Part shown: piece after piece, positions 12,099 to 39,007 of the stretch
Position numbering within the stretch: position 1 is the stretch's first letter
Layout: each line of letters opens with the position of its first letter
Assembly: GCA_021741195.1 (NCBI GenBank)
Contig: JAIOYL010000004.1
Span: forward strand, 1-51,794
DNA from: Sneathiella sp.
GTDB taxonomy: Bacteria > Pseudomonadota > Alphaproteobacteria > Sneathiellales > Sneathiellaceae
Direction of reading: 5' to 3'
DNA: 51,794 nt
Notes under the pieces: generated by a model
What the model was told of the DNA's origin: nothing
What the model saw: the letters and a program-made list of their open reading frames with translations, nothing else
Databases searched by the model: none
Made by a program: the position numbers and the translations under genes

Positions 12099-12117
12099 AT
12101 TAGGGCTCAATTCCGCG

Positions 12118-16157: not shown

Positions 16158-16164
16158 TTTATAA

Positions 16165-16184: not shown

Positions 16185-16211
16185 CCATTCCCGCCATTGA
16201 AGGAAAATCCG

Positions 16212-20968: not shown

Positions 20969-21295
20969 CTAATGTGAAATCATCCAGGGACGCTTGGCGG
21001 GAAAGCTTTTCGATCCGTCAGGGCGATATAACGTGCCCGAGTTGATTTTCTTGCCACCGCCACAACATCCGCAACCGGGGCCATGAGAGGATTTCTTCGG
21101 CTCATGCGCGCTTTTTTCGTTGGTGGCATGGGCATGGCGGGTCCCCGCTTCCATCATGGCCAGCCGTGGAGCGGACATCATTCTCGGCGCGTTTGAGCCG
21201 CAACTCGGGCAACAGCCGGGCTGCGCATAATCGGAAATCGGCGCCATTTCATCAAACGGACCGCAATCCTCACATGAATATCTGTAAATCGGCAT
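20969..21295 (-). CDS. fmdB: FmdB-family zinc-ribbon protein
   Basis: 108 residues from the ATG at 21295, which has GGAG at the right distance; four extra residues are possible upstream. The N-terminal zinc ribbon MPIYRYSCEDCG, with a second Cys pair in CCPSCG, is diagnostic. A His/Lys-rich linker and a CGCCGGG cluster follow. In Methylophilus methylotrophus fmdB lies beside formamidase and was proposed to regulate the amide system; its biochemical role is unsettled. It is the last gene of the urt-fmd operon. Confidence 0.88.
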   Translation of the reverse strand: MPIYRYSCEDCGPFDEMAPISDYAQPGCCPSCGSNAPRMMSAPRLAMMEAGTRHAHATNEKSAHEPKKSSHGPGCGCCGGGKKINSGTLYRPDGSKSFPAKRPWMISH

Positions 21296-21355
21296 GAAAT
21301 TCTCCAAAAGCCGGGCGGGATCGCGGCCCGCCCGTTCAAGAAAGGGAAATATGAC

Positions 21356-22588
21356 TTAGAGATCGGGCGCCAGCGGCACGTCGATGGACCCGTCAAGATA
21401 CTTCTTGGGCCCGTCCGCATTCGGCATCATGTCCCATTCGAAAATATCAGTCGGCAGCCAAAGCGTTGCACAGGCATTTGGAATATCGACAACGCCCGAA
21501 ATATGCCCCTGAACCGGCGCGGTGCCGAGGATCGCGTAGGCCTGGGCACCGGTGTAGCCGAATTTCTTCAGATACTCGATTGCATTAAGGCAGGCCTGAC
21601 GGTAGGCAATATGGACATCCAGATAATGCTGCTTGCCCACCTCATCGACGGAGATCCCTTCGAAGATGAGATAGTCATCATATTTCGGCGCGATCGGTGA
21701 GGGCCGGAAAATCGGGTTCTTGACGCCGTATTTCTGCATTCCGTCCTTGATCAAAGACACCTTGAGATGCAGCCAGCCCGCCATTTCAATGGCGCCGCAG
21801 AAGGTAATCTCGCCATCGCCCTGGCTGAAATGCAGATCACCCATGGAGAGCCCGGCGCCATCGACATAAACCGGGAAATAAATCTTTGATCCGCGCGACA
21901 GGTCCTTGATATCGCAGTTACCGCCATGTTCCCGCGGCGGCACTGTACGGGCGGCCTCGGCGGCGGCCTTATCCCTTGCCTCGCCCGTCATCCTGCCCAT
22001 ATGCGCAGTCGGACCGCCATCGGGGAGCGTTGCAAGCTCCGGAACGCGTTCGGGGTCGGTCGCGACCAGCGCCTTCTCGCGCTTGTTCCACATATCCAGC
22101 ATCTTCCGGTCCGGAAGGCAGCCGATCAGGCCAGGATGGATGAGCCCGGCATATCTCACGCCCGGCACATGGCGGGACTTGGTAAACATACCCTCAAAAT
22201 CCCAGATGGATTTTTGTGCTTCTGGGAAATGCTCGGTCAGAAAGCCGCCGCCATTCTTCTTCGAAAAGAAGCCGTTAAACCCCCAGAGACTTTCTTCTTT
22301 CGTGCCGATATCGAGAATATCGACGACCAGAAGGTCACCGGGCGACGCTCCTTCCACGCCGATCGGTCCGGAAAGATAGTGAACCTGCGCCAGTTCAACA
22401 TCGCGAACGTCGGAGGCATCGTCATCATTCTTGATCTGTCCGCCGGTCCAGTCATAGGTTTCGATCTTGAAGTCATCGCCCGGCTTCACCCAGACGGCAA
22501 TCGGAATGTCCGGATGCCAGCGGTTGTGGATATTCTCGTTGGTAAGCGGACTTTCACTCAGGTTCACTTCGATAATTGTATCAGTCAT
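21356..22588 (-). CDS. fmdA: Formamidase FmdA (acetamidase/formamidase family)
   Basis: 410 residues, matching the usual length of FmdA, with GGAGG before the ATG. The enzyme hydrolyses formamide to formate and ammonia in the cytoplasm, with weaker activity on other short amides. Family features include HNRWHPDIPIAVWVKPGDDF near the N terminus, DGAGLSMGDLHFSQGDGEI in the middle and YAILGTAPVQGHISGVVDIP near the end. It follows five genes for an amide/urea importer and precedes fmdB, as in the M. methylotrophus fmd cluster. No urease genes are seen in this window. Confidence 0.93.
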   Translation of the reverse strand: MTDTIIEVNLSESPLTNENIHNRWHPDIPIAVWVKPGDDFKIETYDWTGGQIKNDDDASDVRDVELAQVHYLSGPIGVEGASPGDLLVVDILDIGTKEESLWGFNGFFSKKNGGGFLTEHFPEAQKSIWDFEGMFTKSRHVPGVRYAGLIHPGLIGCLPDRKMLDMWNKREKALVATDPERVPELATLPDGGPTAHMGRMTGEARDKAAAEAARTVPPREHGGNCDIKDLSRGSKIYFPVYVDGAGLSMGDLHFSQGDGEITFCGAIEMAGWLHLKVSLIKDGMQKYGVKNPIFRPSPIAPKYDDYLIFEGISVDEVGKQHYLDVHIAYRQACLNAIEYLKKFGYTGAQAYAILGTAPVQGHISGVVDIPNACATLWLPTDIFEWDMMPNADGPKKYLDGSIDVPLAPDL

Positions 22589-22618: not shown

Positions 22619-23308
22619 TTAGACGGATAGGAATTTTGAGACCTTTTCTTCATCGATTCCGGCGCGCGGGGCTTCATGGACGAACTCGCCATTTTCAAGC
22701 ACCAGCACCCGGTCCGCGACATCCAGCGCGAAACTCAGGACCTGCTCGGATACGATAATGGAGAGACCCCGCTCATCGCGGATGCGGCGCAGCGTCCTTG
22801 CCATTTCACGGATAATGGACGGCTGTATTCCTTCCGTCGGTTCGTCCAGCAACAGGACTTTGGGGTTGGAGGCAAGCGCACGGGCAATTGCTAGTTGCTG
22901 CTGTTGACCACCGGAAAGATTCCCTCCCCGTCTTGATTTCATTTCAACAAGAACCGGGAACAGCTCATATATATCGCTGCTGACCTTTTTCTTACCGGTG
23001 ACGATCAGGCCGGTCTCGACATTTTCCTCAACCGTCATGGAGGAAAAGATCTGGCGGCCCTGCGGTACATAGGCCAGGCCTTTGGCCACCCGTTCATAGG
23101 ATTTCAGTGCCTGGATGGATGCGCCGTCAACAGTAACACTTCCAGTTTTTGTAGGAACGATCCCCATAAGCGTCTTCATCAGGGTTGTCTTGCCCATGCC
23201 GTTCCGTCCCATGATCGCGACGATTTCTCCGGGAGAAATGGCAAAATTCAGCCCATGGAGCACTTCGGATTCGCCATAGGCGGAGCGGAGACTTTCAACT
23301 GCTAACAT
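22619..23308 (-). CDS. urtE: UrtE-type ATPase of the amide/urea importer
   Basis: 229 residues from the second of two adjacent ATGs (23308), which sits at the better distance from AAGGAGG; 23311 is the alternative. A LivF/UrtE-type single ABC module: Walker A GRNGMGKTT, signature LSGGQQQQL, Walker B VLLLDEPTEGIQPSII, the last with the UrtE-type Gly-Ile-Gln-Pro after the D-loop. Works with UrtD and two permeases. The FmdF protein of methylotrophs is the same type, so the name fmdF could equally apply. Confidence 0.87.
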   Translation of the reverse strand: MLAVESLRSAYGESEVLHGLNFAISPGEIVAIMGRNGMGKTTLMKTLMGIVPTKTGSVTVDGASIQALKSYERVAKGLAYVPQGRQIFSSMTVEENVETGLIVTGKKKVSSDIYELFPVLVEMKSRRGGNLSGGQQQQLAIARALASNPKVLLLDEPTEGIQPSIIREMARTLRRIRDERGLSIIVSEQVLSFALDVADRVLVLENGEFVHEAPRAGIDEEKVSKFLSV

Positions 23309-23318
23309 CATTACCTCC

Positions 23319-24065
23319 TTAGTGTCCAAGATAGACTTCGATGACTTTGGGATCGGCTTGCACATGCGCCATCGACCCTTCCGAGAGGACCTTGCCCTGA
23401 TGCAGCACTGTGACGCGCGTCGCGATATCCTCAACGAATTTCATGTCATGCTCAATGACGATGACCGAGCGGTCCTGAATGATGCGGTTGAGGAGTTCGG
23501 CGGTCTTCTTGCGTTCCGCCACCGACATACCGGCTACCGGCTCATCCAGCATAAGCAGTTCCGGATCCTGGATGAGCAGCATGCCGATCTCGAGCCACTG
23601 CTTCTGGCCATGGCTGAGATAGGCAGCCTTTTCCTCAAGCAATTCCTCCAGAAAAACCGTCGCGGCAATTTCATCTATCCGGGATATCACTGCGTCATCT
23701 CGGCGAAACGTCAATGCACCGAAAACTCCATGTCCCTTGGGGTATGAAATCTCGAGATTTTCGAAAACTGTCAGATCCTCATAGACCGTGGGGGTCTGGA
23801 ACTTGCGGCCAACGCCCGCATGGACGATCTGGTCCTCGCGCATTTTCAGGAGTTCCTGATTTTTGAACTCGACCTTGCCGCTTGTCGCTTTCGTACGGCC
23901 GCAAATCAGGTCGAGAACCGTCGTCTTGCCGGCGCCGTTCGGACCGATAATTACGCGGCATTCATTTTGCTCAACGTAAAAGCTCAAGCCGTCAACCGCC
24001 TTGAATCCATCGAAGGATACAGTCAGGTTCTCAACAGTGAGCAGGAAATCCGGTCGTGCATTCAT
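23319..24065 (-). CDS. urtD: UrtD-type ATPase of the amide/urea importer
   Basis: 248 residues from ATG 24065, which has AGGAGGA seven bases away; a GTG two codons earlier is too close to that site. A LivG/UrtD-type module with Walker A GPNGAGKTT, a signature reading LSHGQKQWLEIGM, typical of UrtD rather than LivG, and Walker B LLMLDEPVAGM. The FQTPTVYEDLTVFENLEIS segment is also family-typical. Tightly packed between urtC and urtE. Confidence 0.9.
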   Translation of the reverse strand: MNARPDFLLTVENLTVSFDGFKAVDGLSFYVEQNECRVIIGPNGAGKTTVLDLICGRTKATSGKVEFKNQELLKMREDQIVHAGVGRKFQTPTVYEDLTVFENLEISYPKGHGVFGALTFRRDDAVISRIDEIAATVFLEELLEEKAAYLSHGQKQWLEIGMLLIQDPELLMLDEPVAGMSVAERKKTAELLNRIIQDRSVIVIEHDMKFVEDIATRVTVLHQGKVLSEGSMAHVQADPKVIEVYLGH

Positions 24066-24077
24066 CGCCACTTCCTC

Positions 24078-25223
24078 CTAGTCGGCCGCCGCTTCAAGCG
24101 GGTCATATTTACTAACATCCTCGTCGATGTGCATTTTTCGCTTGAAAATCAGAGCTATACGCGGTTCGACGTAGTCCTTATAGATGCCCGCAAGGCCGTT
24201 CGGGAACGCCAGCACAACGGCAATGAAAAGGCCGCCAAGGCCAAGCAGCCAAAGTTCAGGGAAAAGTTCTGAAAATGTCGTTTTGGCAAGATTGACCAGG
24301 AGGGCACCGTATACGGCTCCGATAATAGAAAGGCGTCCGCCAACCGCACAGAAGATCACCATCTCGATAGAGGGAACGATGCCGACAAAGCTCGGCGACA
24401 TAAAGCCAACCTGCAACGTGAACATCGCGCCGCCGACCGCAGCGAAAGCCGCGCCTGCGCAAAAGACGAAAATTTTGAAGTTGGCGACGTCGTAGCCTGA
24501 GAACCGGACACGATCCTCCTGATCCCGCATGGCGATCAGAATGCGGCCAAGCTTTGATTTACGGATTATCTGGGCAATAAAGAGGCAGGCGAAAAGCAGG
24601 CCGCCATTGACGAAATATAGAATAACCTTGGCGTCGTCCGTGCGGATATCCCAGCCTTTCAGGGTTCTGAGATCCGTGATGCCGTTGACGCCCCCCGTAT
24701 ATCCCTGCTGGCCAATGATCAGGATCGTCAGTATGGCCGCGATGGCCTGGGTGATAATTGCGAAATAGACGCCGCCAACGCGCCTGCGGAACATGGCGAC
24801 GCCAATAATGAAGGCAAAGATTACCGGAATAATGATAACGGCCACGAGACTGAAGGTCAGACTATGAAAAGGCTGCCACCAGAACGGGATCTCGGCGATC
24901 TGGTTCCAGTCCATGAAGTCGGGGATGCCCGGCGTCGACTGGATTTTCGTCGCTTCCGGGCTGGAGGCCTCGAGCTTCAGAAACATGGCCATGCAATAGC
25001 CGCCAAGACCGAAGAAGACTCCTTGACCGAGGCTGAGGATACCTCCCGCCCCCCAGCAAAGCACAAGTCCGATCGCCACAAAAGCGTAGGTCAGATATTT
25101 GCCGAACAGATTGAGACGAAAAACGTCCAGACCGACGGGCAGCATCACGAAGATCAGAAGTGCGAGAAGAGCAAAGCCGATAAGGTCCGTATTCGAGAAA
25201 AAGCGGTTTTTGTTTAAAAACAT
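24078..25223 (-). CDS. urtC: UrtC-type permease of the amide/urea importer
   Basis: 381 residues of the LivM/UrtC class with about ten hydrophobic helices. WGAGGILSLGQGVFFGLGGY and GYTGGVNGITDL are UrtC-like, and FCAVGGRLSIIGAVYGALLV is near the C terminus. GAGG stands upstream of the ATG, 10 bp past the urtB stop. It forms the membrane channel with urtB. Confidence 0.9.
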   Translation of the reverse strand: MFLNKNRFFSNTDLIGFALLALLIFVMLPVGLDVFRLNLFGKYLTYAFVAIGLVLCWGAGGILSLGQGVFFGLGGYCMAMFLKLEASSPEATKIQSTPGIPDFMDWNQIAEIPFWWQPFHSLTFSLVAVIIIPVIFAFIIGVAMFRRRVGGVYFAIITQAIAAILTILIIGQQGYTGGVNGITDLRTLKGWDIRTDDAKVILYFVNGGLLFACLFIAQIIRKSKLGRILIAMRDQEDRVRFSGYDVANFKIFVFCAGAAFAAVGGAMFTLQVGFMSPSFVGIVPSIEMVIFCAVGGRLSIIGAVYGALLVNLAKTTFSELFPELWLLGLGGLFIAVVLAFPNGLAGIYKDYVEPRIALIFKRKMHIDEDVSKYDPLEAAAD

Positions 25224-25233: not shown

Positions 25234-26160
25234 TCATTTACGGAGTTTGAGAGCGAAGAGACCTTGCGGGCGCAGCATCAGGATACCGACGACCGTCAGC
25301 AAGGTAAGGACCTTGGCCATCGAGCCGGACAGGAAAAATTCCATAATGGACTGCGCCTGCGAGATCGAGAAAGCGGAGGCGATCGTTCCAAGAAGACTTG
25401 CGGCCCCGCCAAAGACGACGACCAGGAAGGTATCGACGATATAAAGCTGTCCGGCTGTCGGTCCGGTTGAACCGATCATCGTGAAAGCGGAACCGGCGAC
25501 ACCGGCAACACCGCAGCCAATGCCGAAGGTCAGCCGGTCCGTGCGTTCCGTGTTGATGCCGACGGCCCCGGCCATGACACGGTTCTGCGTGACCGCCCGT
25601 ACCTGTTTTCCCCAGGAAGAGCGGAACATCATGATATAGACAGCTATGGAGATTCCGGTCGCCAGCACCATAACAAAAATGCCGTTAATAGGGATTTCGA
25701 TCGTATCTGTAAGTGGCAGGGAGCCCATCATCCACTCCGGTATGGTCACACCGACTTCGCGGGCGCCGAAAACAGACCGGTAGATTTGCTGCATGATCAG
25801 GCTGAGCCCCCAGGTTGCGAGAAGCGTATCAAGGGGTCTTTTGTATAAATGTCGGATGAGCGCCCATTCGACAAACATCCCGAGCGCGCCTGCCACGATA
25901 AAGGCCAAAATCATCGCGAGAAAAAAATACATACTGAACAATGCTGGCATGTATTCGGAAAACAAATTGGAGGTCAGGTAGGTAACATAGGCGCCTAAAA
26001 TCATGAACTCGCCATGTGCCATGTTAATAACGCCCATCTGGCCGAAGATGATGGCCAGGCCCAGCGCCATAAGAACAAAAACTGAGAAGAGAATGAGGCC
26101 CGCAAAACCCTGCATGGCAAATATAGCCCCGAGTTCCCCCATTGAGTAATCAGCGAACAT
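25234..26160 (-). CDS. urtB: UrtB-type permease of the amide/urea importer
   Basis: 308 residues of the LivH/UrtB class. FGQMGVINMAHGEFMILGAY and RPLDTLLATWGLSLIMQQIY are characteristic; the glycine-rich GIGCGVAGVAGSAF follows in the second half. Some UrtB proteins carry a long N-terminal extension, which is absent here. AGGAG stands upstream of the ATG. The 94-bp gap from urtA holds a strong hairpin. Confidence 0.9.
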   Translation of the reverse strand: MFADYSMGELGAIFAMQGFAGLILFSVFVLMALGLAIIFGQMGVINMAHGEFMILGAYVTYLTSNLFSEYMPALFSMYFFLAMILAFIVAGALGMFVEWALIRHLYKRPLDTLLATWGLSLIMQQIYRSVFGAREVGVTIPEWMMGSLPLTDTIEIPINGIFVMVLATGISIAVYIMMFRSSWGKQVRAVTQNRVMAGAVGINTERTDRLTFGIGCGVAGVAGSAFTMIGSTGPTAGQLYIVDTFLVVVFGGAASLLGTIASAFSISQAQSIMEFFLSGSMAKVLTLLTVVGILMLRPQGLFALKLRK

Positions 26161-26254: not shown

Positions 26255-27523
26255 CTATTGATACCCTTTCGGGAACGGATCCGGTTCGACCAGCTCCGCC
26301 GTTTCGAAGACAACTTCATATTGGCCGTCGAGCTTGGCGTGACCAACACGGGTCTTGGACCACAAGTGATGGTTTTCATGAACTTTCACATATCCCTCGG
26401 GAGCGGTGGTCAATTCAATTCCCGGGCTCGCGGCCCGCACCTTGTCGATATCGAAGGATCCCGCTTTCTCGACAGCCGCCTTCCACAGCCAAGGACCGAG
26501 ATAAGCGGCCTGGGTGACGTCACCGATAACGATCTCATCGCCCCACATCTTCTTGAATTCCTCGACAAACGCGATGTTGTTCGGGTTATCCAGGCTCTGG
26601 AAATATTTCATGCAGGCATAGGCGCCGACAATATTTTCACCGCCGATGCCACGGATTTCGTCTTCCGTTACCGAAATGGTCAGCAGAAGCGGTTTTTCCT
26701 TGGTCATATCAATGCCGGCCGCCTTAAGCTGCTTGTAGAAGGCGACGTTGGATCCGCCGACGACGATCGCGTAGATCACATCCGGTTTTTTCAGGCGGAT
26801 CTTGTTGATCACCGAGTTGAACTGTGTGTGGCCAAGCGGATAATATTCCTCACCCACTACTTTCAGGCCCAGCTTTTCGATATGCTTGCGGGCGATCTTG
26901 TTGGAGGTGCGCGGCCAAATATAGTCCGATCCGAGCAAATAGAAGGATTTAGCCCCCTTGGTTTCCGCCACCCAGTTGAGACCGGCGATGATCTGCTGCG
27001 TTGCTTCCTGCCCGGTGTAAATAACGTTCGGAGACTGCTCCAGTCCTTCATAGAATGTCGGATAGTAAAGGAAACCGTTATATTGCTCGAAGACAGGCAG
27101 CACGGCCTTGCGGCTGGCGGATGTCCAGCAGCCCATGACGGAAGCAACCTTGTCGTTGACCAGCAATTTCTTCGCCTTTTCGGCAAAGGTAGGCCAGTCC
27201 GAGGCACCGTCTTCCTGAATATACTTGATTTTGCGGCCCAATATGCCGCCTTGCGCATTGATCTGCTCAATGGCCAGTTTCTCTGCCTGCACGGAACCGG
27301 TTTCGGAAATCGACATAGTGCCTGTAATCGAATGAAGGATGCCGATCGTCACTTCATCATCGGTAACCGCCAGACCGGTCGTATTCACTGCTGCCGTCGG
27401 ATAATCGGCTGCACGCAGGAATTTTGGCACAAAAAGCGATGCGGCCAGTGCCGTTCCGCCCATCAACACCGAACGGCGTGACGCTTCCATCTGCTTGTTT
27501 GGTTTCTTTGGTGTATCGGACAT
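26255..27523 (-). CDS. urtA: UrtA/FmdD-type periplasmic amide/urea-binding protein
   Basis: 422 residues. The N terminus has a Tat-type signal (ASRRSVLMGG then a hydrophobic stretch ending LRAAD). The mature protein is a UrtA/AmiC-type binding protein: TIGILHSITGTMSISETGS, then GCWTSASRKAVLPVFE and NGFLYYPTFYEGLEQSPNV, with the paired aromatic residues typical of UrtA. It captures urea or short amides; the formamidase downstream favours formamide. An AAGGAG site precedes the ATG. First gene of urtABCDE-fmdAB; its control region is shared divergently with the kinase gene. Confidence 0.9.
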   Translation of the reverse strand: MSDTPKKPNKQMEASRRSVLMGGTALAASLFVPKFLRAADYPTAAVNTTGLAVTDDEVTIGILHSITGTMSISETGSVQAEKLAIEQINAQGGILGRKIKYIQEDGASDWPTFAEKAKKLLVNDKVASVMGCWTSASRKAVLPVFEQYNGFLYYPTFYEGLEQSPNVIYTGQEATQQIIAGLNWVAETKGAKSFYLLGSDYIWPRTSNKIARKHIEKLGLKVVGEEYYPLGHTQFNSVINKIRLKKPDVIYAIVVGGSNVAFYKQLKAAGIDMTKEKPLLLTISVTEDEIRGIGGENIVGAYACMKYFQSLDNPNNIAFVEEFKKMWGDEIVIGDVTQAAYLGPWLWKAAVEKAGSFDIDKVRAASPGIELTTAPEGYVKVHENHHLWSKTRVGHAKLDGQYEVVFETAELVEPDPFPKGYQ

Positions 27524-27601: not shown

Positions 27602-27618
27602 ATGTTGCAATGCAACAT
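27602..27618. promoter_or_regulatory. Perfect palindrome with TGCAATGCA core between urtA and the kinase gene
   Basis: ATGTTGCAATGCAACAT is a perfect inverted repeat around one central base, 79-95 bp upstream of the urtA ATG. It shares its core with sites before nasT and the nrt promoter and overlaps the neighbouring 22-bp inverted repeat by four bases. Confidence 0.5.
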
Positions 27619-27636
27619 ACGTCGTTTAACGTATGT
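27615..27636. promoter_or_regulatory. Inverted repeat ACATACGT-N6-ACGTATGT, candidate operator
   Basis: Perfect 8-bp arms around CGTTTA in the divergent region between urtA and the sensor kinase gene. The length and symmetry suit a dimeric regulator such as the LuxR-type response regulator encoded at 31.1 kb. It could also form an RNA hairpin, but no U-run follows on either strand. Confidence 0.5.
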
Positions 27637-27763: not shown

Positions 27764-30700
27764 ATGAAACCAATTTTTGGCGTGATGAGAGAGCGTCGGC
27801 GATATAACCAATGGGTCGCAAATGAGACCCTGGAAGATTTTGCGCTCAGGTTTACCGCCCGTCGCGCCCGTCGCTGGTCCTATTTACGTGTCACGAACAC
27901 GGCTCTCGGCTCCATCTCCTTTCTGGCGCTGGAGGCAATCGGCGGCGCGATTACCCTGCGCTATGGCTTTGATACGGCGATAACGGCGATTATGCTGGTC
28001 GGGGCAATCCTCTTCCTCACCGGTATCCCGATCAGCTACTACGCCGCCAAATATGGCGTTGACATCGACCTTCTTACCAGAGGGGCCGGCTTTGGCTATA
28101 TCGGCTCCACGGTTACATCGCTCATTTATGCCTCCTTCACCTTTATCTTCTTCGCGCTTGAAGCCGCTATCTTGAGCTTTGCGCTGGAATTATGTTTCGG
28201 GATTCCCATTGGCATAGGATATATTCTGAATGCCCTCGTCGTGATTCCACTCGTTACCCATGGATTCACCAAAATATCGAAATTCCAGGCATGGACCCAA
28301 CCCCTCTGGATTCTCCTGCATATTCTGCCCTTCGCGCTTCTTGCCGCCGCCGGATATGACATTCACAGCTGGCAGGCTTTCAAGGGGCTGGGCCCGACCG
28401 AGGCAAGCGGCATGACCCTGATGATGCTCGGCGCCGCGTCCGGTGTCGTCTTTTCCCTCATCGCGCAGATCGGCGAGCAGGTTGATTTCCTGCGCTTTCT
28501 GCCCGAGCCAAAAACAGCGCAGGAAACGAGAAAGTGGTGGATGTCGATGCTCTGTGCCGGGCCGGGATGGACACTCCTCGGGGTCGCCAAAATGCTCGCA
28601 GGCTCCTATCTTCTGACCTTCGCCATCTCGCAAGGCGTCGGGACCGACGACGCGGGCGATCCGACGCAGATGTATTTCGCCGCCTTCAGTCAGGTCATAG
28701 AAAATCCGTTTCTGGTGCTTTCGCTGACAGGCGCCTTTGTCATCCTCAGCCAGCTCAAAATCAATGTCACCAACGCCTATGCGGGATCAATAGCCTGGTC
28801 GAATTTCTTTTCCCGGCTGACTCACAGCCATCCCGGGCGGGTTGTCTGGATGGTGTTCAATGTCGCCATCGCCCTCATGCTCATGAATCTTGGGGTTTTC
28901 GGTGCTCTGGAAACAACGCTCGCCTTTTATTCGCACGTCGCGCTGGCCTGGATCGGCGCTATCGTTTCCGATCTCGTGATCAACAAACCGCTAGGTCTCA
29001 GTCCTCCCCATATCGAGTTTCGTCGGGCGCATTTATATGACATCAATCCCGTGGGGCTCGGATCCATGGGCGGCGCCTGTATCGTCTCATTTCTCGCCTA
29101 TTCCGGCGCCTTCGGTCAGACAGCGATGTCCCTGTCCTCCTTCATCGCCCTTTTCACCGCCGTGCTTCTCGCGCCCCTGATCGCCTATGCGACGAAGGGC
29201 CGATATTACATAGCGAGAACGCCGGCGGCCATGCCCGAAAGCCTCCATACATGCTGCATCTGCGAGTACCGCTTCGACGCGGAGGATATGGCGGACTGTC
29301 CTTTTTACGAAGGCCCCATCTGCTCCCTTTGCTGTTCACTGGATTCGGTCTGCCGGGATGCCTGCAAGCCATTTGCACGGCTGGACCAGCAAACCAGCAG
29401 CTTTCTCAATTGGGTGTTTCCAGAGAAAATTGTTTCAATATTACAATCGCGTATGGCGCAGTTTACAGTTCTGACATCGGCAATCTCGGGGCTGATCGGG
29501 GCGCTTCTTTGGGTTATCCGAAGTCAGGCGGGAACTGAATATCTCGATATTACGCTCACCCTGATTTTTTCCGGGTTGCTCTTCATTGTCGGTGTCTCAG
29601 TCTGGCTGTTTATTCTGGCTCATGAAAGCCAGCGGGCGGCGTGGCAGGAATCCAATTTGCAGTCCCAGCGCCTGATGCGGGAAGTCCGCGCCCATAAGCG
29701 CACAGATGCCGAACTGCAGGACGCCCGTGACAAGGCCGAAGCCGCAAGCCAGGCAAAAAGCCGTTATATGATGGGCTTGAGCCATGAACTGCGCACACCG
29801 CTCAACGCCATCTTTGGCTATGCGCAAATTCTATACAAGGATCCGAATACGCCTCCCAACCGGAAGGAAGCCGTCTCCGTTATCCGCCGGTCAGCGGAGC
29901 ATTTGTCCGGCTTGATAGAAGGCCTGCTCGATATCTCGAAAATCGAGGCCGGACGCATCGAAATTTACCGCGACCGCATTGATTTTGCTCTCTTCATGTC
30001 GCAACTGGCGGGCATATTTGAAATGCAGGCGGCGGAAAAAGGTCTGAAATTCACCTATCAGATCGCCACCAAACTGCCAGCCTGGATTGCGACGGACGAA
30101 AAGAGGCTGCGGCAGATCCTGATGAATTTGCTGTCCAACGCCATTCGCTATACCGAGGCAGGCGAGGTCAAACTGATACTATCCTACAGGAACGAGGTTG
30201 CTCATTTTGAAGTGAGCGATACCGGCATCGGCATACCGTCCAACAAACTTGATACTATCTGGAAACCCTTCGAGAGGGCAGGCGTCAAGACCGTCCGTGG
30301 TACGGGTCTTGGCCTCACCATCACGAAACTGCTGGTGGAGATGATGGGCGGGGAAATACGGGTCCAGAGTATTTATGGACAAGGGAGCAAGTTTAACCTT
30401 CGAATGATGCTGCCCGCGGTTTACAGGAGCGACCAGCCACCGGAGACGCCCGAAGCCCGGATCACCGGCTACACTGGACAGCGGCGCAGCATTTTCGTTC
30501 TCGACGACGAAACGGATCATCTGAAACTGATTGAGACGCTTCTTGCGCCGCTCGGTTTCAAGTTATACCTCGCTTCCAGTCTCGAGATTGCCCGGGAAAT
30601 GCTGAGCATGTCAAAACCCGACCTGTTCCTTCTCGATATCGATCTTCCGGATATATCGGGGTGGGAATTCGCCGCGCAGCTCAGACGCGGCGTCCATCAC

Positions 30701-31099
30701 GCGACCCCTATCATCATGGTGTCGGCGCATGCGCTTGAAGGCAGAAACAAGAAAAATGGGCCCGAAGATGCCCTGCATGATGCCTTTATTGCAAAGCCGG
30801 TCAGCTTCTCGAACCTGCTGGAGCAAATCCGCACGCTTCTGAAACTCGACTGGACCAAGGATATCCGCCGGCCAGTGATTGAGCATAATAATGTCATCTT
30901 GCGTGAAAGCGACAGGGCCCGAATTATCTCCATGGCCAGAATCGGGAACGCCTCTGCCATTCGCACACATCTTGACCAAATGGAAACGGAGGCGCCTAGC
31001 TTGCAATCCGGCCTGCAACCGCTTCGCCAGCGGCTTTCAGAATTTGATCTGCCGGGATTAATTAAAGATTTGGAGGCGTCGCCCGATGATATTGTCTGA
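27764..31099 (+). CDS. Hybrid histidine kinase with an NCS1 permease-like sensor, cysteine cluster and receiver domain
   Basis: 1111 residues. Residues about 35-480 are a polytopic membrane domain resembling NCS1 purine/cytosine permeases (LRYGFDTAITAIM, ISYYAAKYGVDIDLLTRGAGF, QLKINVTNAYAGSIAWSNFF). A cluster of eight or nine cysteines follows at about 497-535 (CCICEYRF, then CSLCCS). Two more helices lie at about 568-625. A coiled linker leads to HisKA with phosphorylatable His674 (SHELRTPLNA), HATPase_c (SDTGIGIP, RGTGLGL) and a receiver with Asp958 (LLDIDLPDISG), then about 90 helical residues. The layout recalls CbrA (SLC5 transporter plus kinase) with a different transporter class. It is divergent from urtABCDE-fmdAB and coupled to the regulator gene. 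Probable role: sensing an amide, urea or purine-like nitrogen source. Confidence 0.88.
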   Translation: MKPIFGVMRERRRYNQWVANETLEDFALRFTARRARRWSYLRVTNTALGSISFLALEAIGGAITLRYGFDTAITAIMLVGAILFLTGIPISYYAAKYGVDIDLLTRGAGFGYIGSTVTSLIYASFTFIFFALEAAILSFALELCFGIPIGIGYILNALVVIPLVTHGFTKISKFQAWTQPLWILLHILPFALLAAAGYDIHSWQAFKGLGPTEASGMTLMMLGAASGVVFSLIAQIGEQVDFLRFLPEPKTAQETRKWWMSMLCAGPGWTLLGVAKMLAGSYLLTFAISQGVGTDDAGDPTQMYFAAFSQVIENPFLVLSLTGAFVILSQLKINVTNAYAGSIAWSNFFSRLTHSHPGRVVWMVFNVAIALMLMNLGVFGALETTLAFYSHVALAWIGAIVSDLVINKPLGLSPPHIEFRRAHLYDINPVGLGSMGGACIVSFLAYSGAFGQTAMSLSSFIALFTAVLLAPLIAYATKGRYYIARTPAAMPESLHTCCICEYRFDAEDMADCPFYEGPICSLCCSLDSVCRDACKPFARLDQQTSSFLNWVFPEKIVSILQSRMAQFTVLTSAISGLIGALLWVIRSQAGTEYLDITLTLIFSGLLFIVGVSVWLFILAHESQRAAWQESNLQSQRLMREVRAHKRTDAELQDARDKAEAASQAKSRYMMGLSHELRTPLNAIFGYAQILYKDPNTPPNRKEAVSVIRRSAEHLSGLIEGLLDISKIEAGRIEIYRDRIDFALFMSQLAGIFEMQAAEKGLKFTYQIATKLPAWIATDEKRLRQILMNLLSNAIRYTEAGEVKLILSYRNEVAHFEVSDTGIGIPSNKLDTIWKPFERAGVKTVRGTGLGLTITKLLVEMMGGEIRVQSIYGQGSKFNLRMMLPAVYRSDQPPETPEARITGYTGQRRSIFVLDDETDHLKLIETLLAPLGFKLYLASSLEIAREMLSMSKPDLFLLDIDLPDISGWEFAAQLRRGVHHATPIIMVSAHALEGRNKKNGPEDALHDAFIAKPVSFSNLLEQIRTLLKLDWTKDIRRPVIEHNNVILRESDRARIISMARIGNASAIRTHLDQMETEAPSLQSGLQPLRQRLSEFDLPGLIKDLEASPDDIV

Positions 31100-32024
31100 T
31101 TTCGACCATCGCCGCCAAATCGTTCTGGTCGTCGACGATAGCCCTGAATCGCTCTCAATGGTCGCAACGGCCATCGAGGAGGCCGGAATGACGGTTCTGG
31201 TTGCGCGGGATGGGGAGACGGCCCTTGAACTCGTCAAAAGAATACAGCCGGATGTGGTTCTGATGGACGCGGTCATGCCCGGTCTCGACGGGTTCGAGAC
31301 CTGCGCCCGCCTCAAATCAGGTCACGACATGATCCAGGCACCGATCATATTCATGACCGGCCTGAGCGAGCCGGAACACATTCTGAAAGGCCTGGAAGTG
31401 GGCGGCGTGGATTACGTGACAAAACCGGTTAATCCCGATGAGCTGATTGCCCGGCTGACAATCCATTTAACCAACGCCAAGATGATTGAAAGCGCCCAGA
31501 ATGCACTGGATGCCGGTGGCCGTCCGGTTATGGCGGTGACACAGGTGGGCAATCTGATCTGGGCGTCGCCGGAAGCGAAGAAACTGATGGATCGGCTCGC
31601 GAAGTTCACGGATGACGACAATAGGCTGACCAATGCGAAGATGCTGGACTGGCTGTCGGAGCTCATTAAAACCCCGCTCTCGCAATCCCAACCTTTTCAT
31701 CTTGGGAAAAAAGACGATCTCATAGAGATTAGTCTCTTGGGCATTCGTACGCCGAAGGAGATTTTGCTCTCCATCGAGAAGGTATCGGTTCTGGACCCGA
31801 AGAAAGCCCTGATTAACACCTTCGCACTCACGGCGCGGGAAGCGGAGATCCTCATCTGGCTGTCCCGCGGTAAAACCAACCGTGATATCGGCGACATCCT
31901 CGCCATCAGCTCCCGCACGGTTAACAAGCATCTCGAACAGATATTCCAGAAGCTGGGAGTCGATAACCGGACGTCGGCCGCCGTAATTACGGATAGGATT
32001 TGCAGGAAAGCAGGCGTTCATTGA
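31086..32024 (+). CDS. Response regulator, receiver plus LuxR-type DNA-binding domain
   Basis: 312 residues, overlapping the kinase gene by 14 bp. The N-terminal receiver shows VLVVDDS, the phosphoacceptor Asp61 in VLMDAVMPG and the conserved Lys in YVTKPVNP. A middle segment of about 100 residues has no family I recognise (it begins after LTNAKMIESAQNALD and may be PAS-like). The C terminus is a LuxR/GerE helix-turn-helix (LTAREAEILIWLSRGKTNRD, then SSRTVNKHLEQIFQKLGVDNR). It is the cognate partner of the kinase and a good candidate to control urt-fmd across the divergent region. Confidence 0.92.
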   Translation: MILSDFDHRRQIVLVVDDSPESLSMVATAIEEAGMTVLVARDGETALELVKRIQPDVVLMDAVMPGLDGFETCARLKSGHDMIQAPIIFMTGLSEPEHILKGLEVGGVDYVTKPVNPDELIARLTIHLTNAKMIESAQNALDAGGRPVMAVTQVGNLIWASPEAKKLMDRLAKFTDDDNRLTNAKMLDWLSELIKTPLSQSQPFHLGKKDDLIEISLLGIRTPKEILLSIEKVSVLDPKKALINTFALTAREAEILIWLSRGKTNRDIGDILAISSRTVNKHLEQIFQKLGVDNRTSAAVITDRICRKAGVH

Positions 32025-32202: not shown

Positions 32203-32454
32203 TTAATGTGACCACGCGTGCTCGTTGAGGTAGGCTGTCATTGCATTGTAAGTCATCATCCGCGGATAGTCCGCTTGAGGCATGTCTATGTTGAAACGAC
32301 TGCTCAGCGCAGTTACCAAATGGAGAAAATCCATGGAATCGATGTCGAACTCCTCCTGCAAATTTGCGTCACGGTCGATTGTCGTGACATCAATATCTGG
32401 AGCAATGCGGTGAATTTCCTCTTTCAGTACGGCTTCAATCTCGATGGTGTTCAT
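32203..32454 (-). CDS. Acyl carrier protein (phosphopantetheine-binding)
   Basis: 83 residues with the phosphopantetheine attachment serine at residue 40 in DIDSMDFLHL. The sequence is acidic and helical as in ACPs but differs from housekeeping AcpP. The ATG overlaps the stop of the E2 gene, so it is translated with the dehydrogenase operon. A dedicated carrier beside E1/E2 and an acyl-CoA ligase is uncommon; it could accept an acyl group from E2 or the ligase, which is inference. Confidence 0.87.
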   Translation of the reverse strand: MNTIEIEAVLKEEIHRIAPDIDVTTIDRDANLQEEFDIDSMDFLHLVTALSSRFNIDMPQADYPRMMTYNAMTAYLNEHAWSH

Positions 32455-33692
32455 AACGTCTCCGGCGCTTGCAAAAAATTGGAAATTGCTCTCAGGAATA
32501 GAGCCCCCTGATGACCATCGCTAACGCGATGGTCCGCCGCCAAGGAGATATTGGCAATCTGCCGGGGTACCAGCACGCCATCCTGCACCCAAGGGCGCGT
32601 AGACGGGGTACCAATACCAATCAGCGCAACCTGCGGCGGATAGATAACGCCATATAGGGTGTCCACGCCCCGGTCCCCCAGGCTCGATATCGTAATTGTC
32701 GGGTCTGAAAGCTCTGATGACCGGAATCGCCCAGCACGGACACGGGAAACTAAATCGCGTATTGCCGACATCACGGAGTCAAGATCAAGGCTTTCTGTGT
32801 TATGAATTGCCGGAGCGACCAGACCGCCGCCGCGTATTCTGATCGCCATTCCGATGTGAGCCGCGGCATTGGGGTGGAAGATGTCACCGGTAAAATGTCC
32901 GTTGAATTCGGGATATTTCCCCAAAGCCCTTGCGACGGCCTTTAGATAAAGCGCGCCCAGCAAAAGCCGCTCTGCTGGAGGTCGGTTTGCGTTGGTCTGA
33001 GTGACAAAAGCCGCTGCTTTGGAGAGGTCAATCGTATGTCCAAGGTAATAATGCGGTATTTCCCGTTTTGATCGCGACATCGCCGCCGCAATCGCCTTAC
33101 GCATTCCAGACTTTTCCATAGGCCCAGCGACGTTTGCGGCCGCACCGGGAGCCCCCGGTTTAGCGTCAATCCGTGCTTCAACATCAGCCAAAGTAATCAC
33201 GCCTTCTGGCCCGAAACCGGGGTTTTCAAACGACATCAGATCGAGCCCCGATTCCTTGGCCCGCCGACGGGCTGCCGGTGTTATCCGAACGCGCATCCCG
33301 GGTTTTCCTGAAGGAAGTGACGATCCACTGACTGTTTGATCCGGCTTGGTATCGGGAGCAGTTTTATGGACCGGTTCCGCCGGAGCGACTTCTTTCTTTT
33401 GTGTCGTCGCATCGGCGGCTGCGAGGAGCTGTTGGTCGCGGGAGGGTACATCTTGTCCAGCTCCCCGGATGACGGCCATCGGAGTTCCCACCGGAATAGT
33501 TTTTCCAATCTCAGCCAGATAGGTTTCAAGAACACCGTCCTCAAAGACCTCGATTTCAATCGCGCCCTTGTGGGTTTCAACAACCGCGATGATATCTCCA
33601 CGGTGAACATCGTCGCCCGGTTTTATCAACCATTCTACGAGTGTCCCGGCCTCCATGTCAGGCCCGAGGGATGGCATGAGGAATTCGCTCAT
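32451..33692 (-). CDS. Dihydrolipoamide acyltransferase (E2) of a 2-oxo acid dehydrogenase complex
   Basis: 413 residues. Lipoyl domain at 1-80 with the modified Lys42 in ETHKGAIEIE; a linker rich in Pro/Ala/Lys; a peripheral subunit-binding domain at about 131-170 (RITPAARRRAKESGLD); and the catalytic domain from about 190 with the active-site His in ADHRVSDG near the C terminus. It transfers the acyl group from E1 to CoA. It starts 4 bp after the E1 gene. The class is close to PdhC/AcoC; substrate (pyruvate, acetoin or branched 2-oxo acid) is not fixed by sequence. No E3 is encoded nearby, so a shared lipoamide dehydrogenase is needed. Confidence 0.9.
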   Translation of the reverse strand: MSEFLMPSLGPDMEAGTLVEWLIKPGDDVHRGDIIAVVETHKGAIEIEVFEDGVLETYLAEIGKTIPVGTPMAVIRGAGQDVPSRDQQLLAAADATTQKKEVAPAEPVHKTAPDTKPDQTVSGSSLPSGKPGMRVRITPAARRRAKESGLDLMSFENPGFGPEGVITLADVEARIDAKPGAPGAAANVAGPMEKSGMRKAIAAAMSRSKREIPHYYLGHTIDLSKAAAFVTQTNANRPPAERLLLGALYLKAVARALGKYPEFNGHFTGDIFHPNAAAHIGMAIRIRGGGLVAPAIHNTESLDLDSVMSAIRDLVSRVRAGRFRSSELSDPTITISSLGDRGVDTLYGVIYPPQVALIGIGTPSTRPWVQDGVLVPRQIANISLAADHRVSDGHQGALFLRAISNFLQAPETL

Positions 33693-33696
33693 AATC

Positions 33697-35700
33697 TTAC
33701 ACCCGGTCCATTAAGGCTTTGGCTGCGGCAATTATTTTTGGCACCTGCGGAATTGCAGCCTCCTCCAGATGGCGCGCATAGGGGATCGGCACTTCCTCGC
33801 TACAGACCCGCGCAATGGGCGCATCGAGTTCAAAGAAGGCACTTTCCACCAGCCGCATGCCGATTTCAGCGGCCAGGCTTCCACTTTTCCATCCTTCATC
33901 CACGATCAGGGCGCGGTGGGTCTTGGCGATCGAGGCAATTATTGTCTCTATATCAAGAGGGCGCAGACTGCGTAGATCAATCACATCAGTCTCGATATTC
34001 TCTTTCGCGAGTTCCTCCGCCGCATCAAGGGTTTTGAACAGCGATCCGCCATATGTAATCAATGACAGATCAGCGCCTTCACGGCGCAGGGCCGCATGCT
34101 CAATATTGACCGGCCCCGCATTGGCGGCGATTTCTCCGGATCGATTATAGAGCATGACATTTTCGAATATCAGGACTGGATCGGGATCTTCAAGCGCTGT
34201 CCACAGCATGCCGCGCGCATCCTCAAGTGTTGCGGGCGCAAGGACCCGAAGACCCGGAATATGCGCATACCAGCCTTCCAGGCTGTGTGAATGCTGCGCC
34301 GCCAACTGGCGTCCGGCTCCCGTCGCCATACGGATGACAACGGGGACGCCAAACTGATTATTCGACATATGGCGATAAGTGGCGGCGGTGTTCAGAATCT
34401 GGTCGAGTGCAAGTAGCGAGAAGTTGACGGTCATGACCTCAACGATCGGCCGCATCCCGGCAATTGCCGCGCCGATGCCAGCCCCGGTGAAACCCGATTC
34501 CGATAACGGCGTATCACGTATCCGGCCTGGGCCAAACTCATCAATAAGGCCTTTACTGACAGCGTAGCATCCGCCATATCGGCCAACATCTTCGCCCATC
34601 AGGAATACGCGATCATCGCGCGCCAAGGCATCGACAATCCCGGAGCGAACTGCTTCACGGTAGGTCATCTCAACCATTTTTCCGGGCTCTGCCGGTTCGG
34701 CAGGTTGTTTGGATTGTCCAGATGCCATGACATATTGGGTAAGCTGCTCAACCGGCTCCAATGTTCCAGCATCAGCGAAAGCGATGGCCTCGGCAATTTC
34801 CGCGTCAATTTCTTTTTCAATATCGTTAATCTCTTCAGCATGGATTAAACCGGCCTGCTCGAGCCAGCCCTTGAACCGCACAATCGGACCTTTCTCACGC
34901 CAAGCCTCCACCTCTTCCTTGGGTCGATAAAGCTGTGCATCAAACATGGAATGGGCCCTGAAACGGTAAGTCCTGCATTCCAGAAAATAGGGCTTGCCCG
35001 TTTCGCGGATATTGTACAATGCCTTCTTCGCGGCGACCTCAACCGCCACAACGTCCATACCATCAACAACATCACTCTGGATTGCGTAACTTTTTGCCTT
35101 GGCGCTGATATCTGTTTCTGCTTCAGAGAGTTTCAGAGCGGTGCCCATGGCGTAGCCGTTGTTCTCGCAGACGAACAGAACGGGCAGGCTCCATAGCGAC
35201 GCCAAATTGAGACTTTCGTGAAATTCGCCTTCCGCCACTGCGCCTTCGCCAAAAAAACAGGTTGTCACCGCATGTTGCGCACGCATCTTGTCAGCAAGAG
35301 CTAAGCCAACGGCAAGTGGCAGACCGCCGCCAACAATAGCATTGCCGCCATAGAAATTTGCATCCTGGCTAAAGAGATGCATGGACCCTCCACGTCCGCC
35401 GGAGCATCCTTCCGCCTTCCCGAACATTTCGGCCATGATCGTGTTCATGGAAATACCCCGCGCCAAGGCATGGCCATGCTCACGATAGGTTGCGACAACA
35501 CGATCCTTATGTTTGAGGAGGGGGATGATGCCGATCGCTACCGCTTCCTCACCATCGTAAAGATGCAGGAAGCCCCGGATTTTCTCCTGTGTGTAGAGTT
35601 CAGCGCATTTGTCTTCAAAGCGGCGGATACGGATCATTCCTGCAAGCAGGTTTCGCACATGGTTATGATCAAGATGAGGCTTCGGGCTTATGTCTGTCAT
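33697..35700 (-). CDS. Fused alpha-beta E1 component of a thiamine-dependent 2-oxo acid dehydrogenase
   Basis: 667 residues. Residues 1-325 are an E1 alpha domain ([24 protein letters not shown] site from [20 protein letters not shown] to CENNGY). After a linker ([15 protein letters not shown]) residues 345-667 are E1 beta ([48 protein letters not shown]). In most bacteria with this E1 type the two are separate genes. It decarboxylates a 2-oxo acid or cleaves acetoin and passes the acyl to the E2 downstream. The start overlaps the ligase stop, so four genes form one operon. Confidence 0.9.
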
Positions 35701-37448
35701 TGTTCATCACTCTCGAGTGTTGAGATATCGCCTTCAGGCAACCCTAATTCGCGAGCCTTGAGAAGCCGCCGCATAATCTTGCCACTGCGGGTTTTTGGAA
35801 GGTTTTTACGAAAGGCGATATCCTTCGGCGCGACAGCAGGGCCAAGCCGCTTGCGGGCATGCCCAATAAGGTCAAGACGCAGATCCTCTCCCGGTACATA
35901 TCCCGGTTTTAAGGCAACAAAGGCTTTGACGATCTCGCCCGCCGTCTCGTCAGGAATCCCAATAACGGCAACTTCCGCGACCGCAGCATGCTCCATCAAG
36001 GCACTTTCGACTTCAAACGGCCCAATCAGGTGCCCCGCACTTTTAATAACATCATCACTTCGTCCGACAAACCAGAAATAGCCGTCAGAATCACGCATTG
36101 CCAGATCGCCGCTCAAATACCATCCATTCGAAAAGCATTTCCGATACCGCTCATCCTCATGAAGATAGCCCCGCATCATTGATGGCCAGCCTGCCTGCAA
36201 GGCCAGTTCGCCAATTCCCAGGGGCTTTGTAATCTCGCGCACACCATTGTCAGATTTTTCGACAATCGCGGCTCTAATGCCCGGCAATGGTTTGCCCATC
36301 GACCCTGGTTTCACATCTACTGAGGCGTAATTGGCAATCATGATACCGCCGGTTTCGGTTTGCCACCAATTATCATGGAAAGGCATCCCAAATGTATCGG
36401 CGCTCCAGATCACGGCCTCCGGGTTCAGGGGCTCGCCAACACTCGCCATAAAGCGTAAATGCGACAGATCGCGGGATTTAACCAGATCAGAACCCGCCTT
36501 CATTAACATTCGGATGGCCGTCGGGGCGGTATACCAAACAGTGACCCGTTCCTCCGCCAGAATTTGATACCAGCGATTGACATCGAATTCCGCTTCGTCA
36601 ACAATCATCGTAACGCCGTTTGTGAAAGGCGCGATAATTCCGTAGGAAGTTCCAGTGATCCAACCTGGGTCCGCCGTGCACCAGTAGATATCATCCGGTC
36701 GCAGATCAAGCGCTATCCGGCCCGTAATATGATGAGCAACAACGGCCTCATGTACATGTACTGCTCCTTTTGGTTTACCAGTCGTCCCACTGGTGAAATG
36801 CAGTAGTGCGGTATCTTCCGGTGCCATGGCTTCAATTCTGAAGTCCTCCTCCGCAGCCGCCATCAGGGCGGTCAGGTTACGCAAGCCCCCATCACTGCCA
36901 TCGCCGTCGATAATAAGGATTTCCTTTAGTTCCGGGAGGTCGTTTCGGAAGGCTTCCACGTTACGCTTGTAAAGTTTTCTTGTGGTAATCAGCACATTGG
37001 CGCCGCCAATTTCCATGCGGGATTTTATGGGCTCCGGCCCAAATGCGGAGAACATTGGACAAAATACGCAGCCTGCTTTGAGAGTGCCTAGCGCCGCAGT
37101 ATAAAGTTCAGGGACACGTCCGAGCAGGGAATATATTCGATCCCCTTTTTTGATACCAAGAGACCGAAGTAAATTGGCAAAGCGGTTACTCATTTCGGAT
37201 AGATCACGATAGGTGAAATCTTTCCGACTCCCATCCTTGGCGATCCATCTTAAGGCAACATTTCCACCATTGCCATTTTGCAAATGGCGATCAATTGCTT
37301 CGTAAGCAATATTGAGCTTGCCGTCGGGAAACCAGCCCAAAAGCGCTCTTGCTGCATCCCAAGAAAAGCCAGCGACCTCTCTGTCATAGTCAGGCATGTT
37401 CGTTTGCCTAATTACATTCAATTGCTTATGAATTATTTTATTGATCAT
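35697..37448 (-). CDS. Acetyl-CoA synthetase-like acyl-CoA ligase (AMP-forming)
   Basis: 583 residues from the ATG at 37448 (GGAAG upstream); Met at 37397 (MPDYDREV) is an alternative and a TTG at 37496 opens the frame. AMP-binding signature [16 protein letters not shown], then [30 protein letters not shown] and the adenylation Lys region [20 protein letters not shown], which matches the short AcsA type (as in Bacillus) more than the 650-residue Acs. It activates acetate or another short acid. First gene of the operon, behind an FNR-type box, feeding the same acyl-CoA pool as the dehydrogenase. Confidence 0.88.
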
Positions 37449-37525
37449 ACCATTCTTCCAGCCCTCTCGTTTCCCAGAACCGTTTTCAATAAGCAAAAAT
37501 CTAAGTGACGATATCCACCGCCTCC

Positions 37526-37645: not shown

Positions 37646-39007
37646 CTAAACACCCGTTGGATATGTTTCATCCATCTCGCCCTCATGCCAGCGCGTCGGA
37701 ATGTTGAGAGGTTCAAGAGCCGTTGTATCGTCGAAATGAAGTAGAAAATCAAACTGCTCGGTCAGGCAGCTAAACAGGTAATGGCTCTGGCGCTCCGTTT
37801 CCGGACGATAAATGACGCCAATCGCGCGCTGCAAATGCGGCTTTGAAAGCAAATCGTTCATTTCATTATCTACGGTCAGGTCGAGCATGAACCGCTTATG
37901 GCTAACCTGGTGAAACAATCGCTCGTAGCTTCCTTCAAATGGCGGGCGGACGCGTTTGCGTTCAGCCGGAGCATCCCAATCCGAGGCCGCCGTTACTTCT
38001 CCCTGACAGGTTGAAAACCCTACCAAAAGTGCATCACTACCATATTTTTCCTTGGCCAGTTGTCCAATATTGAATTCGCCACGCCGGCTCATATCCGTCG
38101 CCGCCGCGTTTCCGATATGTGAATTGTGAGCCCAGACAACTATTTTTGCTTCTCTGTCCAGACGTTTATCCAGGTGGGCCTTGAGGTCACCAAGCGTTTG
38201 AAACATATGTTTATCGCGCTGGTTCCAGGAGCTGTGTCGTGCGCGAAACATAGTCCGATAATAAGCTTCAGCATTCTGCACCAACTTGGCATTCTGTTCG
38301 GCGCAAAAATACTCATCCCCATCGACGATGCCCTTTTTGGTAATATAGTGATGAGCATTTTTCTGTAGGTCGACCAGTTGTGCGACTATTTCCCGTTCAC
38401 AGGTCTTCGTCAAACCAAACTCTGCCGCTTGTCCATATAATTGTGGTTTATGAATAAACTGCGCGAGGCAGCTATATCGCGCTATCGCCCTGAGGGCGGC
38501 ATCCGGATCATGCTCTTCAAGATATTCAACGACGGCATGCGCGGAAGTACTCATGCTGTAAAGATCAAGGCCGAAAAATCCGACAGGACGTCCACGGCGC
38601 CCTTCCGACTGGGCAAGTTTATTAAAATCAGCTAGCCATTTGATGAAATGTAATATTTCAGTATTTGCCCACATCCAGTTTGGAAACCGCTCAAAATGCT
38701 TCAAAGCATCAAGTGCTGAAGTTTCAGAATCAGAATTTGATACGTAGCGGTTAACCTCATAGGCGTCGGGCCAATCCGCTTCAACGGCTATTGCATCAAA
38801 CTCCAATTCATCTATCAATCGCATGGTTATTTCGGCGCGGCTTCGATAAAATTCCCGTGTTCCGTGGCTAGCTTCGCCAATCAGAACGAAATGCTTGCCC
38901 TGTGCAGCCTTTATAATCGGGTCGTAATCGCCAAAAGCACCGCCGAGGGGCATGGCAAATTTTTCGATCGCCTGAACGGTGAGTTCATCGAACTTTATTG
39001 CCGTCAT
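37646..39007 (-). CDS. Erythromycin esterase-like family protein
   Basis: 453 residues of the EreA-like superfamily: IGEASHGTREFYRSRAEIT near the N terminus, VEADWPDAYEVNRYV, the FGLDLYSM segment, WAHNSHIGNA and a C-terminal GVIYRPETERQSHY. The His/Glu residues proposed as catalytic in EreA-type enzymes are present in GEASHG and EADWP. Chromosomal members of this class are widespread and usually not resistance genes; their substrate is unknown. It overlaps the phosphoribosyltransferase gene by 4 bp as the last gene of a three-gene operon. Confidence 0.88.
   Translation of the reverse strand: MTAIKFDELTVQAIEKFAMPLGGAFGDYDPIIKAAQGKHFVLIGEASHGTREFYRSRAEITMRLIDELEFDAIAVEADWPDAYEVNRYVSNSDSETSALDALKHFERFPNWMWANTEILHFIKWLADFNKLAQSEGRRGRPVGFFGLDLYSMSTSAHAVVEYLEEHDPDAALRAIARYSCLAQFIHKPQLYGQAAEFGLTKTCEREIVAQLVDLQKNAHHYITKKGIVDGDEYFCAEQNAKLVQNAEAYYRTMFRARHSSWNQRDKHMFQTLGDLKAHLDKRLDREAKIVVWAHNSHIGNAAATDMSRRGEFNIGQLAKEKYGSDALLVGFSTCQGEVTAASDWDAPAERKRVRPPFEGSYERLFHQVSHKRFMLDLTVDNEMNDLLSKPHLQRAIGVIYRPETERQSHYLFSCLTEQFDFLLHFDDTTALEPLNIPTRWHEGEMDETYPTGV

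Follow-up and report, generated by a model that had tools for sequence, protein, structure and literature searches.

What does a bacterium sense with a protein that joins a membrane transporter to a histidine kinase, and which genes would it control in response? The question is raised by a 51,794-nucleotide stretch of Sneathiella sp. DNA (contig JAIOYL010000004.1; hereafter the window), in which a single unbroken open reading frame (ORF; 27764..31099, + strand) encodes a 1111-residue fusion of an NCS1-like transporter, an eight-cysteine module and a hybrid histidine kinase. Computation shows this domain order, the NCS1 kinship, the conservation of the cysteines, a constant neighbourhood of response regulator and urt genes, and a conserved dyad upstream of the kinase.

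We regard it as likely that the protein is a membrane receptor derived from an NCS1 transporter. The NCS1 module would bind urea or a short amide, and movement of its helix bundle would reach the HisKA/HATPase core by way of the cytoplasmic eight-cysteine module, acting as a hinge, and a hairpin of two helices. The phosphoryl group would pass to the adjoining LuxR-type response regulator, which would bind an 18-bp dyad between the divergent genes and switch on urtABCDE-fmdA (urt and urease in sister loci), and probably its own gene too. Within this scheme we infer the ligand, zinc in the cysteine module, sidedness, signalling direction, DNA binding and any retained transport.

Domain order and NCS1 kinship of the fusion

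Three Pfam domains were matched, each above its curated cut-off: HisKA (residues 665-730; 29756..29953), HATPase_c (777-882; 30092..30409) and a receiver (910-1022; 30491..30829), all on the + strand. No other domain was found at an E-value of 0.001, and no STAC or PAS match is listed. The phospho-acceptor His674 of the H-box is present in 79 of 79 fusion rows and the receiver motif LLDIDLP starts at residue 956; with HisKA and its H-box histidine, HATPase and receiver, the protein is a hybrid histidine kinase. An AlphaFold2 model (57-row alignment, pLDDT 82.5, pTM 0.81) has a helix bundle that ends near residue 476, followed by the cysteine module and by helices 563-589 and 594-653. The first-pass annotation, which had described a transporter-like domain, a cysteine cluster, HisKA/HATPase and a receiver in one chain with two extra helices ahead of the kinase (29450..29623, + strand), is thus borne out by the ORF, the Pfam matches and the model.

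The transporter module (residues ~20-480; 27821..29203, + strand) had also been assigned to NCS1. The N-terminal part of the fusion has no significant match to NCS1 by Pfam, NCBIfam, phmmer or hmmsearch, and PF02133 (NCS1) matched none of 57 fusion members in Pfam; the link therefore rests on profile-profile and fold comparison. Full-length profile-profile comparison, with other transporter families as negative controls, links the module to NCS1, and in fold it is closer to Mhp1 and CodB, at 14-17% identity in structural alignments, than to other LeuT-fold families. A transporter domain unrelated to NCS1 in profile searches had been named in advance as a refutation, and the profile-profile result goes the other way. 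Among free-standing relatives, one from Klebsiella matches PF02133 (37.7 bits, cut-off 23.5), and those of Streptomyces (L160) and Methylovirgula (L194) have no match over the cut-off.

Transporter-kinase fusions that govern nutrient use have been described for CbrA (PMC13022988) and for RpuS and CrbS (PMC9100948, PMC5715377). As far as the consulted parts of these papers go, they share with the fusion the order of transporter domain, small cytoplasmic domain and histidine kinase in one protein. The transporter class is different, as the first-pass annotation had proposed by comparison with CbrA: it is NCS1 rather than SLC5. hhalign of the module to a six-row SSF set gave an E-value of only 0.63, and PF00474 is absent from the Pfam matches. 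In addition, the position of STAC is occupied by the eight-cysteine module and the two-helix hairpin, and the fusion is paired with a LuxR-type regulator and urea/amide genes. Since no SSF kinship was found and the connecting part differs, the fusion is not classed with the SLC5-STAC kinases. A further parallel is Ks-Amt5, a nitrogen-compound transporter turned receptor and fused to a kinase (PMC8534201), which differs in its Amt transporter, its ammonium ligand and, in the description available, the lack of a cysteine module. No account of an NCS1-kinase fusion, or of the transporter domain of this protein, was found in the accessible portions of the open literature searched; the fusion extends the small number of known combinations of this kind by another class of transporter.

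The ligand region and the cysteine module

Mhp1 Ser312, Trp117 and Gln121, which we take to be residues of sodium and substrate binding, align with Lys332, Phe129 and Glu133 of the fusion. Lys332 (28757..28759, + strand; TM8 segment) is lysine in 79 of 79 fusions and in none of 24 NCS1 proteins, which have Gly (10), Thr (6), Ala (4), Ser (3) or Arg (1); position 129 is Phe in 77 of 79 fusions and position 133 Glu in all 79. A pocket of greater polarity, which may lack sodium, would fit ligands resembling urea. Mhp1 and CodB resemble the module in fold and full-length profile and differ in having no kinase and no lysine at this column, and the ligand of the fusion is probably urea or an amide. 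That the module instead senses one of the customary NCS1 ligands (a nucleobase, hydantoin or allantoin) is very unlikely in our view. The known NCS1 structures are named for such compounds (hydantoin for Mhp1, cytosine for CodB) and free-standing relatives are recorded as 'allantoin permease' or 'cytosine permease', all of which would favour it; against it stand the substitutions at the Trp117 and Gln121 equivalents, and the frequent neighbour clusters identified, which are urt, urease, formamidase and amidase, with no purine or pyrimidine enzyme among them. Separately, a RutB/biuret-hydrolase-like match in the window (16197-17024), below family cut-offs, would also fit another ureido ligand.

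Comparison with ten free-standing transporters that lack a kinase domain bears on whether transport has been kept. Across 140 rows that include both kinases and free-standing sisters, 26 charged or polar positions are shared with no more than one exception each. Kinase-specific changes occur in the helix-1 segment at Ser52, Phe53 and Glu57; the last is Glu in 130 of 130 kinases and Phe (nine) or Gln (one) in the free-standing set; it lies next to the Lys332/Phe129/Glu133 region and is a candidate sensor-specific change. A working transporter whose transport is read by the kinase (a transceptor), as opposed to a non-transporting receptor whose occupancy is read, is a serious possibility that we hold at somewhat below even. 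It would account for the 26 shared positions and has a precedent in CbrA, reported in the part of the source consulted to combine transport and kinase activities (PMC7096432), and it sits less well with the helix-1 changes, with the dedicated urt system beside the kinase in most loci, and with Ks-Amt5, described in the available text as a transporter-derived receptor that transports inefficiently (PMC8534201).

Nine cysteines fall within 38 residues (497, 498, 500, 512, 520, 523, 524, 530 and 534), eight of which (all except C498) form the module (residues 497-534; 29252..29365, + strand). A cluster running from C497 had been noted in the first-pass annotation; its extent holds except at the far end, where the last cysteine, put at about C535, is C534. 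Lack of conservation among homologues had been named as a refutation, and the cysteines are conserved. All 79 of 79 rows have the eight (C498 is Cys in 20), and the spacing C-x2-C-x11-C-x7-C-x2-C-C-x5-C-x3-C is exact in 130 of 130 fusion-type rows, not all of them independent, a count that excludes L028 for its called ORF of only 181 residues. Because the C-terminus of free-standing sisters also bears the module, in reduced forms and once (1 of 10) with the full eight cysteines, its interpretation as a kinase-specific invention was rejected, and from the sequences compared the module is part of the transporter rather than a linker made for the kinase. The idea that all cysteines are essential for the transporter was likewise rejected, as two Arthrobacter and one Tsukamurella relatives retain one or two, and a clean 4 + 4 division, for which the predicted sets are 497/500/520/523 and 512/524/530/534, was weakened by a Streptomyces pair that also retains C512. 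Matches of the module to rubredoxin (E 6.5) and to CRIPT/zinc-finger families (E 4.7, 7.3) are at chance level.

A structural zinc site would be at least as likely a role for this module as a metal or redox sensor, and zinc structure rather than sensing is our default reading. It is unlikely that the module is the true input, as a redox, iron-sulphur or metal (e.g. nickel or zinc) sensor, with the NCS1 part as anchor or modulator. The identical spacing in all fusion rows, set against one full set among the free-standing transporters, means that attachment to a kinase always goes with the full set, and urease is a nickel enzyme; both are points for a cysteine input, and the occurrence of the module in free-standing transporters is a point against it.

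Response regulator, urea and amide genes and the urtA-kinase dyad

Downstream, with a 14-base overlap, the kinase gene adjoins a 312-residue response regulator of the LuxR/GerE type (31086..32024, + strand; receiver-GerE by Pfam). Of the loci that extend 1.1 kb or more downstream, 68 of 68 have a homologue (41-89% identity) whose start lies -10 to 297 bases from the end of the kinase match, and the regulator is probably the cognate partner of the kinase. Divergent from the kinase, on the - strand, lie genes for a UrtA-type substrate-binding protein (26255..27523; TIGR03407, 547.8 bits, cut-off 492.75), the permeases UrtB (25234..26160) and UrtC (24078..25223) and the ATPase UrtD (23319..24071), all three named by NCBIfam, followed by a UrtE-type ATPase (22619..23434) named from its position in the cluster, whose ORF start may be too far upstream because it overlaps urtD. 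Formamidase FmdA (21356..22588; NF045496, 768 bits; PF03069) and an FmdB-type zinc-ribbon protein (20969..21307) complete the group.

This neighbourhood recurs. Where the upstream flank is 7 kb or longer (56 full-flank loci), urtA is present in 55, and with at least 2.2 kb upstream in 65 of 68. Formamidase occurs in 27 of the 56, all with the urt type of the window and six also with an aliphatic amidase; urease genes occur in 26, one also with formamidase; and urt stands alone in three. The two urt types are nearly exclusive, the window type going with formamidase and a more distant type with urease; types were called by the higher of two UrtA scores, and this favours type I because the queries differ in length (422 and 306 residues). 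The earlier suggestion of urea and formamide as test substrates fits this setting, and the fusion is a candidate sensor for either. Since formamidase adjoins urt, the odds at the window locus lean slightly to formamide over urea as the ligand; that urt beside formamidase takes up formamide has already been proposed (PMC13209695, in the part consulted). Several loci of the urease type have an additional ORF separating urtA from the kinase (L062:8471-9607, L030:8717-9652); the former resembles the porin ExtI, below cut-off, the latter has no match, and such ORFs perhaps encode urea porins.

The free-standing sisters point the same way, as six of the ten adjoin urea or amide genes: a urease operon in Klebsiella L161 and Acinetobacter L195, formamidase in Tsukamurella L198 and Moraxella L199, an aliphatic amidase and acetate-CoA ligase in Arthrobacter L197, and the fusion kinase itself, formamidase and aliphatic amidase, with no urt annotated in the stretch, in Methylovirgula L194. 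In Acinetobacter L196 (a record listed as a plasmid, yet 3.66 Mb) a full-length fusion (1154 residues) and its regulator lie opposite a free-standing sister, facing it with 165 bases between them. In the UhpC/UhpT system a transporter paralogue is the sensor for a kinase, and this kinase governs the true transporter. A similar division of labour is suggested by the Acinetobacter and Methylovirgula loci; UhpC/UhpT differ in their MFS fold and in having sensor and kinase as separate proteins. The 'cytosine/allantoin permeases' directly beside the urease operon (L161:7944-9551, L195:5944-7551) are candidate urea transporters under a misleading name, and a set of such 'permeases' probably carries urea or amides, as the fusion family points to. 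In the L161 table, ureE is separated from the urease beta subunit by an IS4321 transposase.

The gap between urtA and the kinase contains the dyad ATACGTCGTTTAACGTAT (27617..27634), a predicted and probable response-regulator site that is identical in L001-L004; the family consensus is ATACGTCA, two A/T, TGACGTAT. Scores above 5 were obtained in 62 of 78 upstream regions and in 61 of 4012 control windows, and scores above 14 in 48 of 78 and 10 of 4012; the 78 regions partly trained the matrix, and the controls leave out the sites themselves. A cleaner test is to cross the types. With a matrix from formamidase-type loci, seeded with the window site, 26 of 33 urease-type loci pass the 99% control level, and in the reverse direction 30 of 37 formamidase-type loci pass, with either the L066 seed or a type II-like seed; a shared seed drawn from all loci gave 22 of 33 and 30 of 37. 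These loci hold eleven further strong sites: eight immediately precede formamidase, two precede urtA, and one precedes the porin-like ORF upstream of urtA in L067. Outside the training set, the best site of the whole stretch in the plasmid loci L162, L163, L219 and L220 lies beside urtA (scores 22.2-27.7); in L196 it lies in the gap that separates the kinase from its sister transporter (21.2). Eight loci that have a free-standing transporter and no kinase score -0.8 to 10.6. The exact pattern occurs at one place in the genome of the window; a wider regulon there was rejected, as matches with at most two mismatches number 13 against 20 in the reversed control, per strand. A promoter scan of the gap was uninformative (1 found, 0.5 expected).

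Several observations weigh against a urea or amide receptor acting on urt through this dyad. One of the 56 full-flank loci (L040) has full-length kinase and regulator ORFs without urt, fmdA or urease; the Streptomyces L160 transporter has no urea or amide neighbour in the stretch shown, and three further free-standing stretches (L196, L200, L201) carry no annotation. The dyad scores 5 or less in 16 of 78 upstream regions and is weaker in the plasmid kinase loci L221 and L194 (at most 10.5 and 14.7). Moreover, the genome of the window has urease elsewhere too, so that urea and formamide cannot be distinguished, and a neighbourhood tells the output, not the ligand: some other cue of nitrogen status could be the signal.

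Relatives of the fusion and other genes of the window

Because 121 relatives were found in genome contigs, the best 80 of which (51-89% identity) were used, the fusion is far from a chance joining. Matches occur in 20 of 289 genomes of the class of the window and, in a second draw with another query, in 26 of 385. A phylum scan with a free-standing relative as query matched 52 of 398 genomes at 57 places, every one inside an open frame no shorter than 894 residues, the length to be expected of fusions and not of free-standing transporters. Methylosinus trichosporium OB3b has a member together with regulator, urt and urease, and a Sinorhizobium carries one too. A non-hybrid variant (L176, 894 residues) has the same transporter and eight cysteines, followed by HisKA-HATPase without a receiver. 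On a contig of an 'Anaerolineae' metagenome-assembled genome (L008) the kinase looks near-identical, in the parts compared, to that of the alphaproteobacterial L025, and the contig may therefore be a contaminant.

In a tree of the transporter part (84 of 146 rows, the 130 kinases thinned to 68; SH-aLRT support only, long outgroup branches), the kinases form one clade (98, starred) with L194 as sister (92); the remaining nine free-standing transporters lie outside (93). The simplest history would be one fusion event, from a transporter already bearing eight cysteines, as indicated by one intermediate and SH-aLRT values. A broader proposal, which we judge evenly balanced, is that a new NCS1 clade carries urea and short amides, and that one branch, fused once to a kinase, became the urea/amide sensor of many Pseudomonadota, including that of a Klebsiella plasmid urea uptake cluster, with the lysine taking the place of the sodium and a cysteine hinge that binds two metals in the role of STAC.

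On plasmids, the full-length protein was matched in 517 of 72,556 records at E 1e-100, 500 of them covering at least 80% of the query and 340 named Klebsiella. The single Klebsiella kinase record of this kind examined, a K. variicola plasmid, has the kinase beside urtABCDE and formamidase. Compared by description only, this cluster is like one on pKPN-307, whose 'urea transport system' (UrtA, UrtB, UrtC, formamidase) has been discussed as helping colonisation of the urinary tract (PMC5506382, PMC13060141); the main texts of both papers, as consulted, contain neither 'histidine kinase' nor 'two-component', so that a regulator of such a system would be new. A 2026 genome paper, in the part consulted, draws a hybrid kinase, perhaps of this family, and a LuxR-type regulator beside a urtABCDE operon without discussing a transporter part (PMC13296017).

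Elsewhere in the window, a nitrate assimilation block (1998-13338) encodes a molybdopterin oxidoreductase with a BFD [2Fe-2S] domain, NirB, a nitrate-type ABC ATPase with two matched stretches and two NMT1_2 binding proteins. The region 15090-20953 encodes a PnrA/BMP-type binding protein and a second ABC ATPase matched in two stretches; with the RutB-like protein they form a possible cluster for uptake and hydrolysis of ureido compounds. Two ORFs of 453 and 233 residues (37646-39705) have no NCBIfam match at 1e-10. Between them and the regulator, the region 32451-37496 encodes a single-chain pyruvate-dehydrogenase-type E1 alpha-beta fusion (667 residues), an E2-type protein and an acetate-CoA-ligase-like protein.
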